The position numbers and the translations under genes were made by a program. Below the pieces are notes generated by a model that worked only from the letters and a program-made list of their open reading frames with translations, was not told where the DNA came from and did not search any database. A stretch of DNA of 33,337 nucleotides from Anaerolineae bacterium (GTDB taxonomy: Bacteria; Chloroflexota; Anaerolineae; Caldilineales; Caldilineaceae), in NCBI GenBank assembly GCA_030432295.1, contig JAUIHI010000048.1:1-33337 (forward strand), written 5' to 3'. This document shows, piece after piece, positions 11,505-16,771 of this stretch; the first letter of the stretch is position 1, and each line of letters starts with the position of its first letter.

Positions 11505-11960
11505 ATGTGGCTTTCAATCCCCGGCGAAAATTCGATGCTCCAGCCATCTCCTCCACGGAAACAGTGGGGAGGGTATGCACGTTTTGTCTATGTGCTGCTG
11601 CTGGCTTTCGTCTTTCCCTTCATCTGCTGGGGAGCGAGCGGACAAGCGGCTCACCCCCACCCCCGCTCACATTTTGTCTTTGCAGCGCCACCGGAAGTCA
11701 ACGGACTTGTAGAGCCGTCCCATCATTTTGCAGATGCCCATAGCCACCCGGCGGCTGCGGATGCTGGTGCTGCCCCCATCGAGGACATCGCCGGTCAATC
11801 CGTACCGGCCAGCATTGCCCTCTTTTCGCTCCTGCTTGTCTACGCCTTCTATCTATGGCTGCTCTATAGACCTGTCAACCAGAAGCACCTCTTCCTTCCC
11901 GCTCTGGGGACAGCCCAAACCACGACTGAACCCCGCTTGCCTCCACCGAGAATCCCATAG
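11505..11960 (+). CDS. His-rich small membrane protein at the head of the copper gene run
   Basis: This protein has up to 151 residues and no family I recognise. A hydrophobic segment at about residues 27-44 (FVYVLLLAFVFPFICWG) can serve as a signal peptide or anchor. It is followed by an extracytoplasmic stretch rich in histidine (AAHPHPRSHF, then EPSHHFADAHSHPAA), a second membrane helix (about 103-122) and a short Pro-rich tail. An in-frame ATG at 11535 would give 141 residues. The gene ends 55 bp before the PCu(A)C gene on the same strand. The histidines and the position suggest copper binding, but this is inference. Two overlapping frames are also open, so coding status is less certain than for its neighbours. 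Confidence 0.6.
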   Translation: MWLSIPGENSMLQPSPPRKQWGGYARFVYVLLLAFVFPFICWGASGQAAHPHPRSHFVFAAPPEVNGLVEPSHHFADAHSHPAAADAGAAPIEDIAGQSVPASIALFSLLLVYAFYLWLLYRPVNQKHLFLPALGTAQTTTEPRLPPPRIP

Positions 11961-12015: not shown

Positions 12016-12504
12016 ATGCACTGGCATTTGCCCAACGCGCATGGCAATCATTTGCCTGCTCGTCTATTGCTTCTTCTCTCTTCGATCCTGCTACTCTCTG
12101 CCTGTGCTGCTTTGCCCACACAGACAGCACCGACCGGCGACGCCGTGCGGATCGAGAACCCCACCGCGCGGCCTGCCACAGCGGGACAAAATAGTGCTGC
12201 TTACTTCACAATCGTCAACCCAACCGGCAAGGACGACCTGCTGCTCACCGCGGCCAGTTCGGTTGCAATGGCGACTGAGGTTCATGAAACTCAAAACGAT
12301 AACGGCGTGATGCGTATGATCCATCAGGCCGATGGCGTGGCTGTGCCGGCCCAATCCACTGTGGAATTTGTGCCGGGCGGCAAACACGTGATGCTGATGA
12401 ATCTACGTCAGGACCTGGCCACGGGCCAGAGCTTCACTGTCACTCTTTCCTTTGAAAAGGCGGGAGAGATCGAAATTGCAGTCCCGGTTCCCAATACACA
12501 ATAG
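12016..12504 (+). CDS. PCu(A)C-type copper chaperone lipoprotein
   Basis: This 162-residue protein starts with a signal sequence ending in a lipobox, LLLSAC, so it should be a lipid-anchored envelope protein. The rest matches the PCu(A)C (DUF461) fold. It has the N-terminal VRIENPTARPA strand, AAYFTIVNP, and the Cu(I) site built from the H of EVHET, the Met pair in GVMRM, and the HVM of GGKHVMLMNL. Members deliver copper to the CuA centre of cytochrome oxidase or buffer periplasmic copper. AAAGG at 12005-12009 lies six bases before the ATG at 12016; the frame is open further upstream but lacks protein-like sequence. The next gene begins 23 bp downstream. Confidence 0.92.
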   Translation: MHWHLPNAHGNHLPARLLLLLSSILLLSACAALPTQTAPTGDAVRIENPTARPATAGQNSAAYFTIVNPTGKDDLLLTAASSVAMATEVHETQNDNGVMRMIHQADGVAVPAQSTVEFVPGGKHVMLMNLRQDLATGQSFTVTLSFEKAGEIEIAVPVPNTQ

Positions 12505-12527: not shown

Positions 12528-13637
12528 ATGAAACGAATAATCGTTGTAATGGCTGGCCTCCTGCTGCTGGCTGCTTTGGCCTTCTCGCCGAGCGGTCCCG
12601 CGCTCTTTGCTGCCCAGTCCAACCAGCAGGCCAGCGGAACACCCACACCAGCACCCGAAGCGGAGGCGACCGCCACACCCGTGGCTGAAGAGGATGCTGC
12701 CGCTGCTGCTGCGGATGAGAGTGAAGCCGAGCCGACACTGGCTGATCTGTCCGCCCGCATCGAAACTCTGGAAGCCACAGTCGCCGAACTTCACGCGGCG
12801 CATGAGGCGGCACACGCGGCCACGTATGACGATGTCAACAGTGTCAATGTGGCCATTTATCTGCTCGACGCCGCGGGTATGCACGAACTGGAGACCCGCC
12901 TGGTCAGCGAAGGCGAGATTCTGCCCGGCGATAGCGGCCAGGTCGGGCAGATAGCCCGCGTTCTCTCGACGGTTGCCTGGCCAGAGGAACTGGCTGCCGA
13001 CGCGACTGCCCTGCAGGAAATGCTGGCCAATCTATCCGCGGCCCTGGCCGACGACGATTTGGAGACTGTGCAACCCCTCTCCACAGAAGCCCACGTGGCC
13101 TATCACGTCTTCTCCCACAACGCGCAGATGTGGATAGCCGAAGCCTCTGCTGCGGAGATGGCTGCTGCGCCGGGACAGAGCAATCGGGTGAATACCGCGC
13201 TCTACCTGCTGGATGGCGCAGGGCTGCACGGGATCGCCGAGCGGCTGAGTGAGGACGAGGAGATTCTGCCCGGCGATAGCGGTCAGGTTGGCCAGGTGGC
13301 CCGCCTGCTCTCCACTGTCGATTGGCCGGAAGAGTTGACCGCGGATGCGGCTGCGCTCCACGAAACGCTGGTTGACCTGGCCGCTGCCCTGGCCGATGAC
13401 GATCTGGAGACTGCCACAGCTTTGGCCGATGCGGCCCACGACGCCCAGCACGACTTCTCCCACGCTGCCCAGGCCTGGCTGTCTGCTGGCGCGATGGATG
13501 CCCATCACGACGATATGAGCCACGACGATATGGATCACAGCGATATGGATCACGAAGATACGGATCACGGCGATATGGATCATAGCGATACGGAGAATCA
13601 GGACGAAGCGCCCGCCGAGCACACCCACGACGGGTAG
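12528..13637 (+). CDS. Secreted protein with two HxxxHxxxH repeats and a His/Asp/Met tail (putative metal-binding)
   Basis: This 369-residue protein has a signal peptide (about residues 1-27), a low-complexity Ala/Glu/Thr linker, and a coiled-coil-like segment (about 68-100, LSARIETLEATVAELH). Two copies of a 100-residue helical module follow at about 106-205 and 221-320. The modules share xYLLDxAGxH, EILPGDSGQVGQ(I/V)AR, LSTVxWPEEL and LAADDDLET-like segments. Each ends in an HxxxHxxxH helix face: H189/H193/H197 and H304/H308/H312. The last 45 residues are Met-Asp-His repeats (DDMDHSDMDHEDTDH) ending AEHTHDG. AAGGAG at 12514-12519 supports the start. I know no family for the module. Its place between PCu(A)C and CopC suggests envelope copper binding, which is inference. 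Confidence 0.9.
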   Translation: MKRIIVVMAGLLLLAALAFSPSGPALFAAQSNQQASGTPTPAPEAEATATPVAEEDAAAAAADESEAEPTLADLSARIETLEATVAELHAAHEAAHAATYDDVNSVNVAIYLLDAAGMHELETRLVSEGEILPGDSGQVGQIARVLSTVAWPEELAADATALQEMLANLSAALADDDLETVQPLSTEAHVAYHVFSHNAQMWIAEASAAEMAAAPGQSNRVNTALYLLDGAGLHGIAERLSEDEEILPGDSGQVGQVARLLSTVDWPEELTADAAALHETLVDLAAALADDDLETATALADAAHDAQHDFSHAAQAWLSAGAMDAHHDDMSHDDMDHSDMDHEDTDHGDMDHSDTENQDEAPAEHTHDG

Positions 13638-13718: not shown

Positions 13719-14297
13719 ATGCGTCACATTCTGCGTATTGGACTGGTTACACTGCTTCTGCTTTTGACTGGGCTGCCACTGGCCGCCAGTGTTCTCTACC
13801 ACGCGGACTACGCCCGTTCGGAGCCAGCCGCGGACGAAGTGCTGGCCACGCCACCCACACAGGTCAAAGTCTGGTTCACCCAGGAACTGTTCCGCCGGGA
13901 GGGGGAGAATTGGCTGCGCGTGACCGGCCCGGACGGGGCGCGGGTGGATTTGGATGATACGGCCGTGGACGACAACGACCGCACACTCCTCACCGTGACC
14001 CTGGCGGACGATCTGCCTGACGGTGCCTATCGGGTGGAATGGCGCGCCCTTTCTGCGGAAGATGGCCACCCGAAAGAGAGCGAATTTGGCTTTGTGGTAG
14101 GAGAGGCAAGTTCTGCGCCCGCGGCGGCTGCCCCGGCAGTTACGTCCACAGCCGCGCCCGCAGTCGCGCCCACTGCAAACCCTGTGGTTGCCGAAACACC
14201 GACCTCATCCGAATCCGGCGGATTGCCCTGCCTGAGCGCTGCGCCCCTGGCAATGCTGGCCCTGGGCACGGTCCTGGTCAAGCGGCGGCGGGGATGA
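13719..14297 (+). CDS. CopC-domain copper-binding protein with C-terminal membrane anchor
   Basis: This 192-residue protein has a signal peptide (about 1-23), then a CopC/YobA-like beta-sandwich. The mature N-terminus carries YHADYARSEPAADEVL, followed by VKVWFTQELF and LPDGAYRVEWRALSAEDGHP. The histidine near the mature start and the DGH motif are the family's usual copper ligands. After the domain comes an Ala/Pro/Thr linker and then a C-terminal cassette: GGLPCLSA, a hydrophobic segment and a KRRRG end, which should hold it in the membrane. GGAGGAA at 13707-13713 lies five bases before the ATG; the frame is open from 13638 but that part crosses the palindrome. It is followed 35 bp later by a CopC-CopD fusion. 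Confidence 0.9.
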   Translation: MRHILRIGLVTLLLLLTGLPLAASVLYHADYARSEPAADEVLATPPTQVKVWFTQELFRREGENWLRVTGPDGARVDLDDTAVDDNDRTLLTVTLADDLPDGAYRVEWRALSAEDGHPKESEFGFVVGEASSAPAAAAPAVTSTAAPAVAPTANPVVAETPTSSESGGLPCLSAAPLAMLALGTVLVKRRRG

Positions 14298-14332: not shown

Positions 14333-16771
14333 ATGTCTATCCGTAGCTTTCAATTTCTATCTTCAAACCGTTTGCGCTGGTTTCTGCTGGTGGCTGGTTG
14401 TCTTCTCGCACTTTCGGGTATAACCCAGCGGGCCGCACTGGCCCACGCCCTGCTGGTGCGTTCGGAACCGGAAGCCAACGCCGAGTTGACCAGTTCGCCG
14501 CCCTCGGTGGAAATTTGGTTTAGCGAACCTCTGGAGAGTGGATTCAGCCACATCCGGCTGATCGATGCCAGTGGCGAAGATGTGCCGGGTGTTGGTCCCT
14601 CGGCTGTGGATTCTGGCGATCCCAGCCACATGAGCCTGCCCCTGCCCGACCTGTCGCCGGGCATCTATACTGTCATCTGGACTACCCTCTCCAGCGTGGA
14701 CGGCCACGAATGGGTCGGCTCCTTCCCCATCACACTGCTCAACCCGGACGGCAGCCGACCCGCCATCGGGAGTTCCGTGGCGGTGACGGGCGAGACTGGC
14801 GAAATCCCATCCCCGCTGAAAGGGGGCGCCCGCTGGCTCTCTCTGCTGGGCGCGATTCTGCTGGCGGGCAGCCTGCTCTTTCGGGAGGCGGTGGCCCGAC
14901 CTGTGCTGGTTCGCCAAGCTGGGCGTGGGACTCCGCCCAGTTTGGCCGGGCATCAGGCCCGTTCCTGGCGAATGTTGGGAATTGTCGGTGTGGCCGGGGT
15001 GCTGGTGGGGGGCTGGCTGCAGATCGGCGCGCAGGTGGCGGCCCTGGGCGCGGTGGAACGCATCTTCGATCTGCTCGTTTCCACCCAACCCGGGCGATTG
15101 ATCCTGCTGCGCCAATTGCTGCTGATTCCGGTCGTGGCTCTGCTGGTGACGGGGGAGCGTTCTGAACGTCTGGGGTTACGCCGCAGCACCACAGCCCGGA
15201 TGCGGGTGGCCGGTGAGTATCTCATCGGGCTGGTGATGCTGCTCACCTTTTCCCTGGCCAGCCACGCTGCGGCTGTGCCCGGCCGGGGCTGGGCGGTGGC
15301 AGGCGATTTTGTCCATCTGCTGGCCGCTGCCGCGTGGATGGGCGGACTGCTCAATCTGGCCCTGCTCTTCTGGCTGGGCCGGGGCAGTGGCCAAAACGAT
15401 CAGCGGGGATTGGGCCAGATCGTGCGGGGATTCTCTCTGCTGGCCGCGGGCGCGGTCTTTGTGTTGACCGTCACTGGCCTGTTCAGCAGTGCTGTCCAAC
15501 TGCCCACCCTGGCCGACCTGTGGACGACGACATACGGCCTGCTGCTGCTAGGGAAGATCGGGCTGGTGGCTTTGGCCCTGGCGGTGGCCTTTTTCAATAA
15601 CCGGGCCGTCCACCGCAACAACGCAAGTACAACAGTGGGAATGGTGCGCCGGGTTTGGAGCGAAGCGCTGGTCAGTGTCGCCCTGCTGCTGGTGGTGGCT
15701 CTGCTGGTGCAGACCCCGCCCCCACCCCGTCCCCAGCCCTATGTGGCTCCCGCGCTGCCCTTTATCGAAATCCAACAGGCCGACGATCTGCTCGTCCATC
15801 TCCAAATCAGTCCCAACCAGCCGGGCAGCAACCGCTTCTGGACCCATCTCTACCACCCGGATACCTCACCCATCGGCGAAGTGCAGTTGGTGCGCCTCTT
15901 CTTTGCACCGCAAAAGGCGGAGCTGGGCCAGGCCCGCACAGACCTGCCCGCGGAAGGCAATGACATTTATGTGGACGAGGGCGCGTGGATGAGCCAGCCG
16001 GGGGAGTGGGATGTGACGGTCTATGTGCGGCGGCGGGGAATGGACGACTCCACCGCCGAGTTCAGTGTGACTATGCCGCCAGCGCCGGGCAGCGCTTCTC
16101 TGGGCACCCCCTGGCAGAATCCCGCCGCGGCTCTATCGCTCCCGGCTTTGAGTGGTGGGCTGCTGCTGGCGCTGGGTCTCATCCCCTTCTTCTGGTGGAA
16201 ACCCCTGCGCCGCCGTAATCGGGACGCCGCTCCTTTCCTGGGCGGTTTGGGATTGGCCTGTGTGGTTATCGGACTCTTTCTGACCGTGCAGGGGATGGCT
16301 GTCGGCGAGCAGGCCGTGGCCGAGCCGCCCGGTAATCCCTTCAGCGGGGCCAACGCGGCCACGCCGATAGTCGCGGTCGTGTCCAGCCTGCCCACGCCGA
16401 CTATCTCCGTTCTTCCGACTCCCACAGGCTCCCAGGCAGAGCCTGGACCGACACCGACAACCGGGCCACCCACGCCGACGCCCACACCGGATGCGGCTTT
16501 TCTGGCCGGGGCCGAGATATTCCAGGCCCAGTGCGTCCAGTGTCACGGCCCCCACGGCATGGGAGACGGTCCCGCAGCCGCTGCTTTGCCTGTCCAGCCC
16601 GCCATTCTGCCCTTCCACGTGCCCCTACACCCGGACGAAGATATCTACGTCTTTATCAGCGAGGGATTCCCCAATCTGGGGATGCCACCCTTCAAGGAGA
16701 CTCTGAGCCAGGACGAGATATTGCAGGTGCTGCGCTATATCCGGGTGCGTTTTGGGGGGATGGCTCCGTAG
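14333..16771 (+). CDS. CopC-CopD fusion with C-terminal cytochrome c domain
   Basis: This 812-residue membrane protein has three parts. A signal peptide precedes a CopC domain (about 38-140) whose mature end starts at H38 (AHALLVRSEPEAN) and which has SSVDGHEW. A CopD membrane domain (about 160-460) carries the hallmark GDFVHLLAAAAWMGGLL. A further extracytoplasmic beta region, more helices and a Pro/Thr linker (TPTPTPD-like) lead to a class I cytochrome c domain (about 725-812) with the haem site C734-x-x-C737-H738 and a likely axial M784 in NLGMPPF. CopC-CopD fusions (YcnJ type) are tied to copper uptake. The added haem domain suggests coupling of copper redox state to the electron-transport chain; that link is inference. 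Confidence 0.93.
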   Translation: MSIRSFQFLSSNRLRWFLLVAGCLLALSGITQRAALAHALLVRSEPEANAELTSSPPSVEIWFSEPLESGFSHIRLIDASGEDVPGVGPSAVDSGDPSHMSLPLPDLSPGIYTVIWTTLSSVDGHEWVGSFPITLLNPDGSRPAIGSSVAVTGETGEIPSPLKGGARWLSLLGAILLAGSLLFREAVARPVLVRQAGRGTPPSLAGHQARSWRMLGIVGVAGVLVGGWLQIGAQVAALGAVERIFDLLVSTQPGRLILLRQLLLIPVVALLVTGERSERLGLRRSTTARMRVAGEYLIGLVMLLTFSLASHAAAVPGRGWAVAGDFVHLLAAAAWMGGLLNLALLFWLGRGSGQNDQRGLGQIVRGFSLLAAGAVFVLTVTGLFSSAVQLPTLADLWTTTYGLLLLGKIGLVALALAVAFFNNRAVHRNNASTTVGMVRRVWSEALVSVALLLVVALLVQTPPPPRPQPYVAPALPFIEIQQADDLLVHLQISPNQPGSNRFWTHLYHPDTSPIGEVQLVRLFFAPQKAELGQARTDLPAEGNDIYVDEGAWMSQPGEWDVTVYVRRRGMDDSTAEFSVTMPPAPGSASLGTPWQNPAAALSLPALSGGLLLALGLIPFFWWKPLRRRNRDAAPFLGGLGLACVVIGLFLTVQGMAVGEQAVAEPPGNPFSGANAATPIVAVVSSLPTPTISVLPTPTGSQAEPGPTPTTGPPTPTPTPDAAFLAGAEIFQAQCVQCHGPHGMGDGPAAAALPVQPAILPFHVPLHPDEDIYVFISEGFPNLGMPPFKETLSQDEILQVLRYIRVRFGGMAP

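Follow-up and report, generated by a model that had tools for sequence, protein, structure and literature searches.

A putative helical copper-binding module with conserved histidines, encoded in a copper gene run and recurring in Chloroflexota

The window, i.e. the whole stretch of DNA that was analysed (33,337 nt), represents one entire contig of a 6.7-Mb genome. It carries a co-directional run of genes encoding a small protein, a PCu(A)C-family protein (hereafter PCuAC), an exported protein with two histidine-bearing modules, CopC, and a CopC-CopD-cytochrome c protein (table 1). The PCuAC and CopC neighbours named in the original prediction are confirmed by Pfam matches (PF04314 at E 2e-33 and PF04234 at E 4e-18 after rounding), and the CopC-CopD-cytochrome c protein comes in addition to them.

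Table 1. Features of the two-module protein and of the genes around it.
Feature	Position	Strand	Basis
Small membrane/exported protein, heads the run; CWG...HPH...HFVF and C-terminal PPPR	11505..11960	+	
PCu(A)C-family copper chaperone, ATG at 12016	12016..12504	+	PF04314 E 2e-33
Exported two-module histidine protein, 369 aa	12528..13637	+	ORF reading; homologues
Signal-peptide-like N-terminus, residues 1-29	12528..12614	+	judged from sequence
Helical linker, residues 70-97, preceding module 1	12735..12818	+	two-module model, confidence low in places
Module 1, residues 98-203; invariant H119, H189, H193; lineage-variable H197	12819..13136	+	
Module 2, residues 213-318; predicted helical bundle, pLDDT 96	13164..13481	+	
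Module 2 residues: invariant H234, W266, A287, H304, H308; lineage-variable H312			
Tail rich in Asp, His and Met (residues 322-369), containing 15-nt repeats	13491..13634	+	
CopC, N-terminal HADYARSEPA and DGHP motifs	13719..14297	+	PF04234 E 3.6e-18
CopC-CopD membrane protein, cytochrome c domain C-terminal	14333..16771	+	PF04234, PF05425, PF13442

The two modules, each of about 106 residues, are 59-62% identical at the protein level. The duplication is also apparent in the DNA, where a stretch of 154 nt at 78% identity and another of 39 nt at 77% identity are repeated, each pair lying 345 bp apart. The histidines of the H-x3-H-x3-H motif were found exactly where they had been predicted, at residues 189/193/197 and 304/308/312, with an offset of 115 residues between the modules. 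Each module has an extra histidine (H119 and H234, respectively), which is conserved better than H197/H312, and both modules are devoid of Cys and of CXXCH. The predicted Met-Asp-His tail is likewise real, comprising 15 Asp, 9 His and 5 Met among 48 residues, with a 15-nt tandem repeat inside.

The module defines a family present in several classes of Chloroflexota; its member proteins contain from one to three or more copies. In protein and profile searches, the latter conducted within Chloroflexota, genomes with relatives numbered 26 out of 100 near ones, 26 out of 396 in the class, 13 out of 400 sampled across the phylum, 42 out of 245 in the class of another relative and 2 out of 29 in the class of one further relative, with thresholds that differ per search and hence make these fractions not directly comparable. 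A search based on a narrower alignment yielded 11 Caldilineaceae loci. Many members of the family have a single module. Tails rich in His and acidic residues are seen in several lineages and are absent from L040 and L042, which have three modules. The original prediction that the module belongs to no known family held up: searches of Pfam and NCBIfam with the window protein and 21 diverse modules gave weak scattered matches only, all below the curated cut-offs (the sole Pfam match among the 21 modules being a weak one to UreF in one module), and comparison of the module with sequence profiles of PDB entries gave nothing below E 0.3. A tblastn search of plasmids yielded no match, and no description of the module was found in the literature searched.

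An AlphaFold model of the single module (pLDDT 96.1, pTM 0.88) consists of five helices (residues 3-18, 21-31, 38-51, 56-77 and 81-105). The conserved histidines are placed, in the numbering of this model, at the start of helix 2 (H22) and on helix 5 (H92 and H96). Confidence is lower for the two-module model (pLDDT 83, pTM 0.53). When the single-module model was used as a query in Foldseek, no match was obtained at E <= 0.001, the best one having an E-value of 0.17. The matches reported by Foldseek and VIA-align span a wide variety of helical bundles, among them cytochrome c' and b562 (BRIL), with Z-scores of 10-12 (about 11 for cytochrome c'/b562); given the tool's own caution value of about 13 for helical bundles, this corresponds to the level of a common fold.

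All 54 canonical modules possess H234, W266, A287, H304 and H308 (module 2 numbering), and the same positions are the only invariant columns among the 21 diverse modules; W317 is conserved in 48 of 52 modules. The invariant histidines are therefore one in helix 2 and an H-x3-H pair on the last helix. The third histidine of H-x3-H-x3-H (H312) occurs in 31 of the 54 canonical modules, the position being occupied by G, S, E, D, K, R, A, F or T in the other 23, and we thus rejected H-x3-H-x3-H as the conserved site. The original prediction had named precisely these three histidines as conserved and as pointing to a metal site. Its first part fails at H312, which by the prediction's own standard (non-conservation of the three histidines among homologues) counts against its triad, with the triad H119/H189/H193 (H234/H304/H308 in module 2) being invariant instead, and its second part stands insofar as conserved histidines, although of a different set, do suggest such a site. 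The counts leave aside the repeats of L053 and L105, the His-less L104 and the truncated module 3 of L100, and they come from family profiles that themselves score the histidines, so that selection favours His-keeping members. His-less proteins are still detectable by profile, because L104 gave a significant match without these histidines. This protein (L104, 8981-10528), which lacks all three histidines and has also a DUF7282 and a cupredoxin domain, may contain a decayed module. Separately, the proteins at L053 9220-10791 and L105 8881-10380 have three repeats of similar length ending in SHDxTHDFY-type motifs; these repeats may represent a remote offshoot of the module, although the similarity is weak.

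The placement of the protein in a copper gene run, also part of the original prediction, was corroborated by a survey of gene neighbourhoods. Among 19 loci of the window's family, 17 have CopC as the gene that follows, and the remaining two are fusions. Most loci of other classes have CopC beside the module gene, or else PCuAC beside it or fused with it. A later set of 32 loci comprises 25 from new genomes and seven from genomes already in earlier sets. All 32 carry CopC or PCuAC, either in the same ORF or within the 1.5-kb flanks (in L158 the CopC match is on the opposite strand, and in L160 the module is matched only in part), whereas none of five control loci taken from the genome of the window does. 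Chance adjacency is unlikely, because the whole 6.7-Mb genome contains only three CopC and two PCuAC matches. One locus, L113, has no copper gene nearby. The module also occurs in the same polypeptide as other domains: PCuAC in L046, L103 and L111 (with the PF04314 matches lying outside the module), YcnI/DUF1775 in L106, L108 and L109 (and, by sequence, similarly in L107), DUF7282 together with Lipoprotein_15 in L052, and ZnuA-like domains in L100 and L102, which, like L113, are exceptions to the copper context.

How the module relates to its partners and to other metal-binding proteins can be considered in turn. PCu(A)C, a cupredoxin-like domain with His/Met ligands, is exported and encoded in the same run, and CopC, a beta-barrel with a His brace, is an exported copper protein and the usual next gene; the module is unmatched by the Pfam models of both (PF04314 and PF04234). 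SmbP of Nitrosomonas is a small exported His-rich helical metal-binding protein with many His repeats, whereas the module has three invariant histidines instead, and none of the 21 modules matched the SmbP Pfam model. YcnI, a Cu(II) binder located with CopD-type importers, resembles the module protein in being exported, copper-related and encoded with CopC/CopD-type genes, but it binds the metal by an N-terminal mono-histidine brace (PMC8424229), while the module is predicted to be all-helical with internal histidines; neither the module nor the window protein matched PF07987. The Csp copper storage proteins hold copper in a four-helix bundle (PMC5171941); for the module a helical bundle is predicted, which may or may not be of the same fold, Csp being absent from the structural matches listed. 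The Csp bundle has many Cys inside, unlike the window's modules, and the two do not match in sequence. Finally, the bundle predicted for the module is comparable in arrangement to cytochrome c'/b562 at the common-fold level, but the module has no match to that sequence family and its histidines are apparently placed elsewhere.

Classed by its gene context, i.e. by being encoded with copper uptake and chaperone genes, the module would act as an extracytoplasmic buffer or chaperone for copper, and it falls outside every family tested. Given the invariant residues, the confidently predicted bundle and the ties to copper genes and domains, we consider it probable that it is an extracytoplasmic copper-binding module that buffers or carries copper for CopC/CopD. 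Metal binding, the identity of the metal, the ligand residues and the direction of transfer are what we infer in this proposal. Each module would bind one metal ion, most likely copper, the putative ligands being the helix-2 histidine (H119/H234) and two histidines of the last helix one turn apart (H189 and H193, or H304 and H308). H197/H312 would be a further histidine extending the site in the window's genus and in some other lineages, and the Asp/His/Met tail might provide additional weak sites of high capacity. Copper would thus be buffered or collected outside the membrane and passed to the adjoining CopC/PCuAC and then to CopD.

A rather unlikely alternative is that the protein is a sink for copper or metals in general that serves tolerance, with the modules and the tail soaking up excess metal outside the membrane and handing nothing over to CopC/CopD. 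The repeated modules, their variable number and the Asp/His/Met-rich tail, with its acidic His-rich counterparts in several lineages, would indeed suit such a capacity. The many single-module members and the tail-less three-module ones do not fit it well, however, the fusion partners are domains of the chaperone type, and CopD has been linked in other bacteria to copper uptake (PMC8424229).

The partners also bear on whether copper is the metal concerned at all. The ZnuA-like fusions, and the fact that three histidines are also a common zinc site, would fit a module that binds zinc or another metal, with the identity of the metal set by the partner; we nevertheless regard this as improbable, as the great majority of loci lie beside copper genes and the ZnuA-like fusions come from two genomes only. 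Even less probable is a haem-binding bundle similar to cytochrome b562 that would pass electrons on to the cytochrome c domain carried by CopD. The presence of that domain and of cytochrome c' and b562 among the structural matches speaks for it, but these matches do not exceed the common-fold level, the module has no CXXCH, its invariant histidines would lie inward of the haem position in those folds (as the ends of the alignments suggest), and its fusion partners are carriers of copper and other metals.

Returning to the module as a copper buffer or carrier, a broader proposal, for and against which we see about equal weight, is that it represents a novel family of copper-binding domains, distributed over the Chloroflexota and having an all-His site within a helical bundle, and serves as an interchangeable metal-handover part repeatedly joined to PCuAC, YcnI and ZnuA-like proteins. 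Against the copper reading, the fusions with ZnuA-like domains and with DUF7282/Lipoprotein_15 could mean that other metals are bound or that the role is not confined to copper, and L104, without the histidines, and L113, without a copper gene nearby, also count on that side. Most of what is known about extracytoplasmic copper handling concerns beta-rich domains (CopC, PCuAC, YcnI). A module that is helical, has three invariant histidines and recurs next to and within these proteins across the phylum would, if the proposal is true, add a part to this pathway. Three named residues per module are available for testing, and the module offers a handle for finding copper uptake genes in this phylum, whose members are in many cases known from metagenomes only.

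Some observations concern the other genes of the run. Alignment of eight loci of the family shows that the small protein heading the run is conserved in them. It contains an export-like segment, the motif CWG...HPH...H(F)(V/I)F and, close to its C-terminus, Pro-Pro-(Pro)-Arg, and it has no Pfam match. Its position and Pro-rich end are reminiscent of CutF and CruR, nascent peptides that sense copper, but their CXXXC/CXXC and RAPP motifs are missing from it (PMC9973294, PMC9426467). A stem over the ribosome site of PCuAC is not significant in the window (z -0.53) and inconsistent among relatives. The protein at the end of the run has CopC and CopD fused as a single polypeptide with a C-terminal cytochrome c domain. 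The separate CopC has HADYARSEPA and DGHP, the motifs on which CopC proteins bear their His-brace ligands, the second ligand being that of DGHP; in all three aligned loci of the genus g8 (L044, L051 and L054), CopC keeps HADY and has DGDD in place of DGHP.
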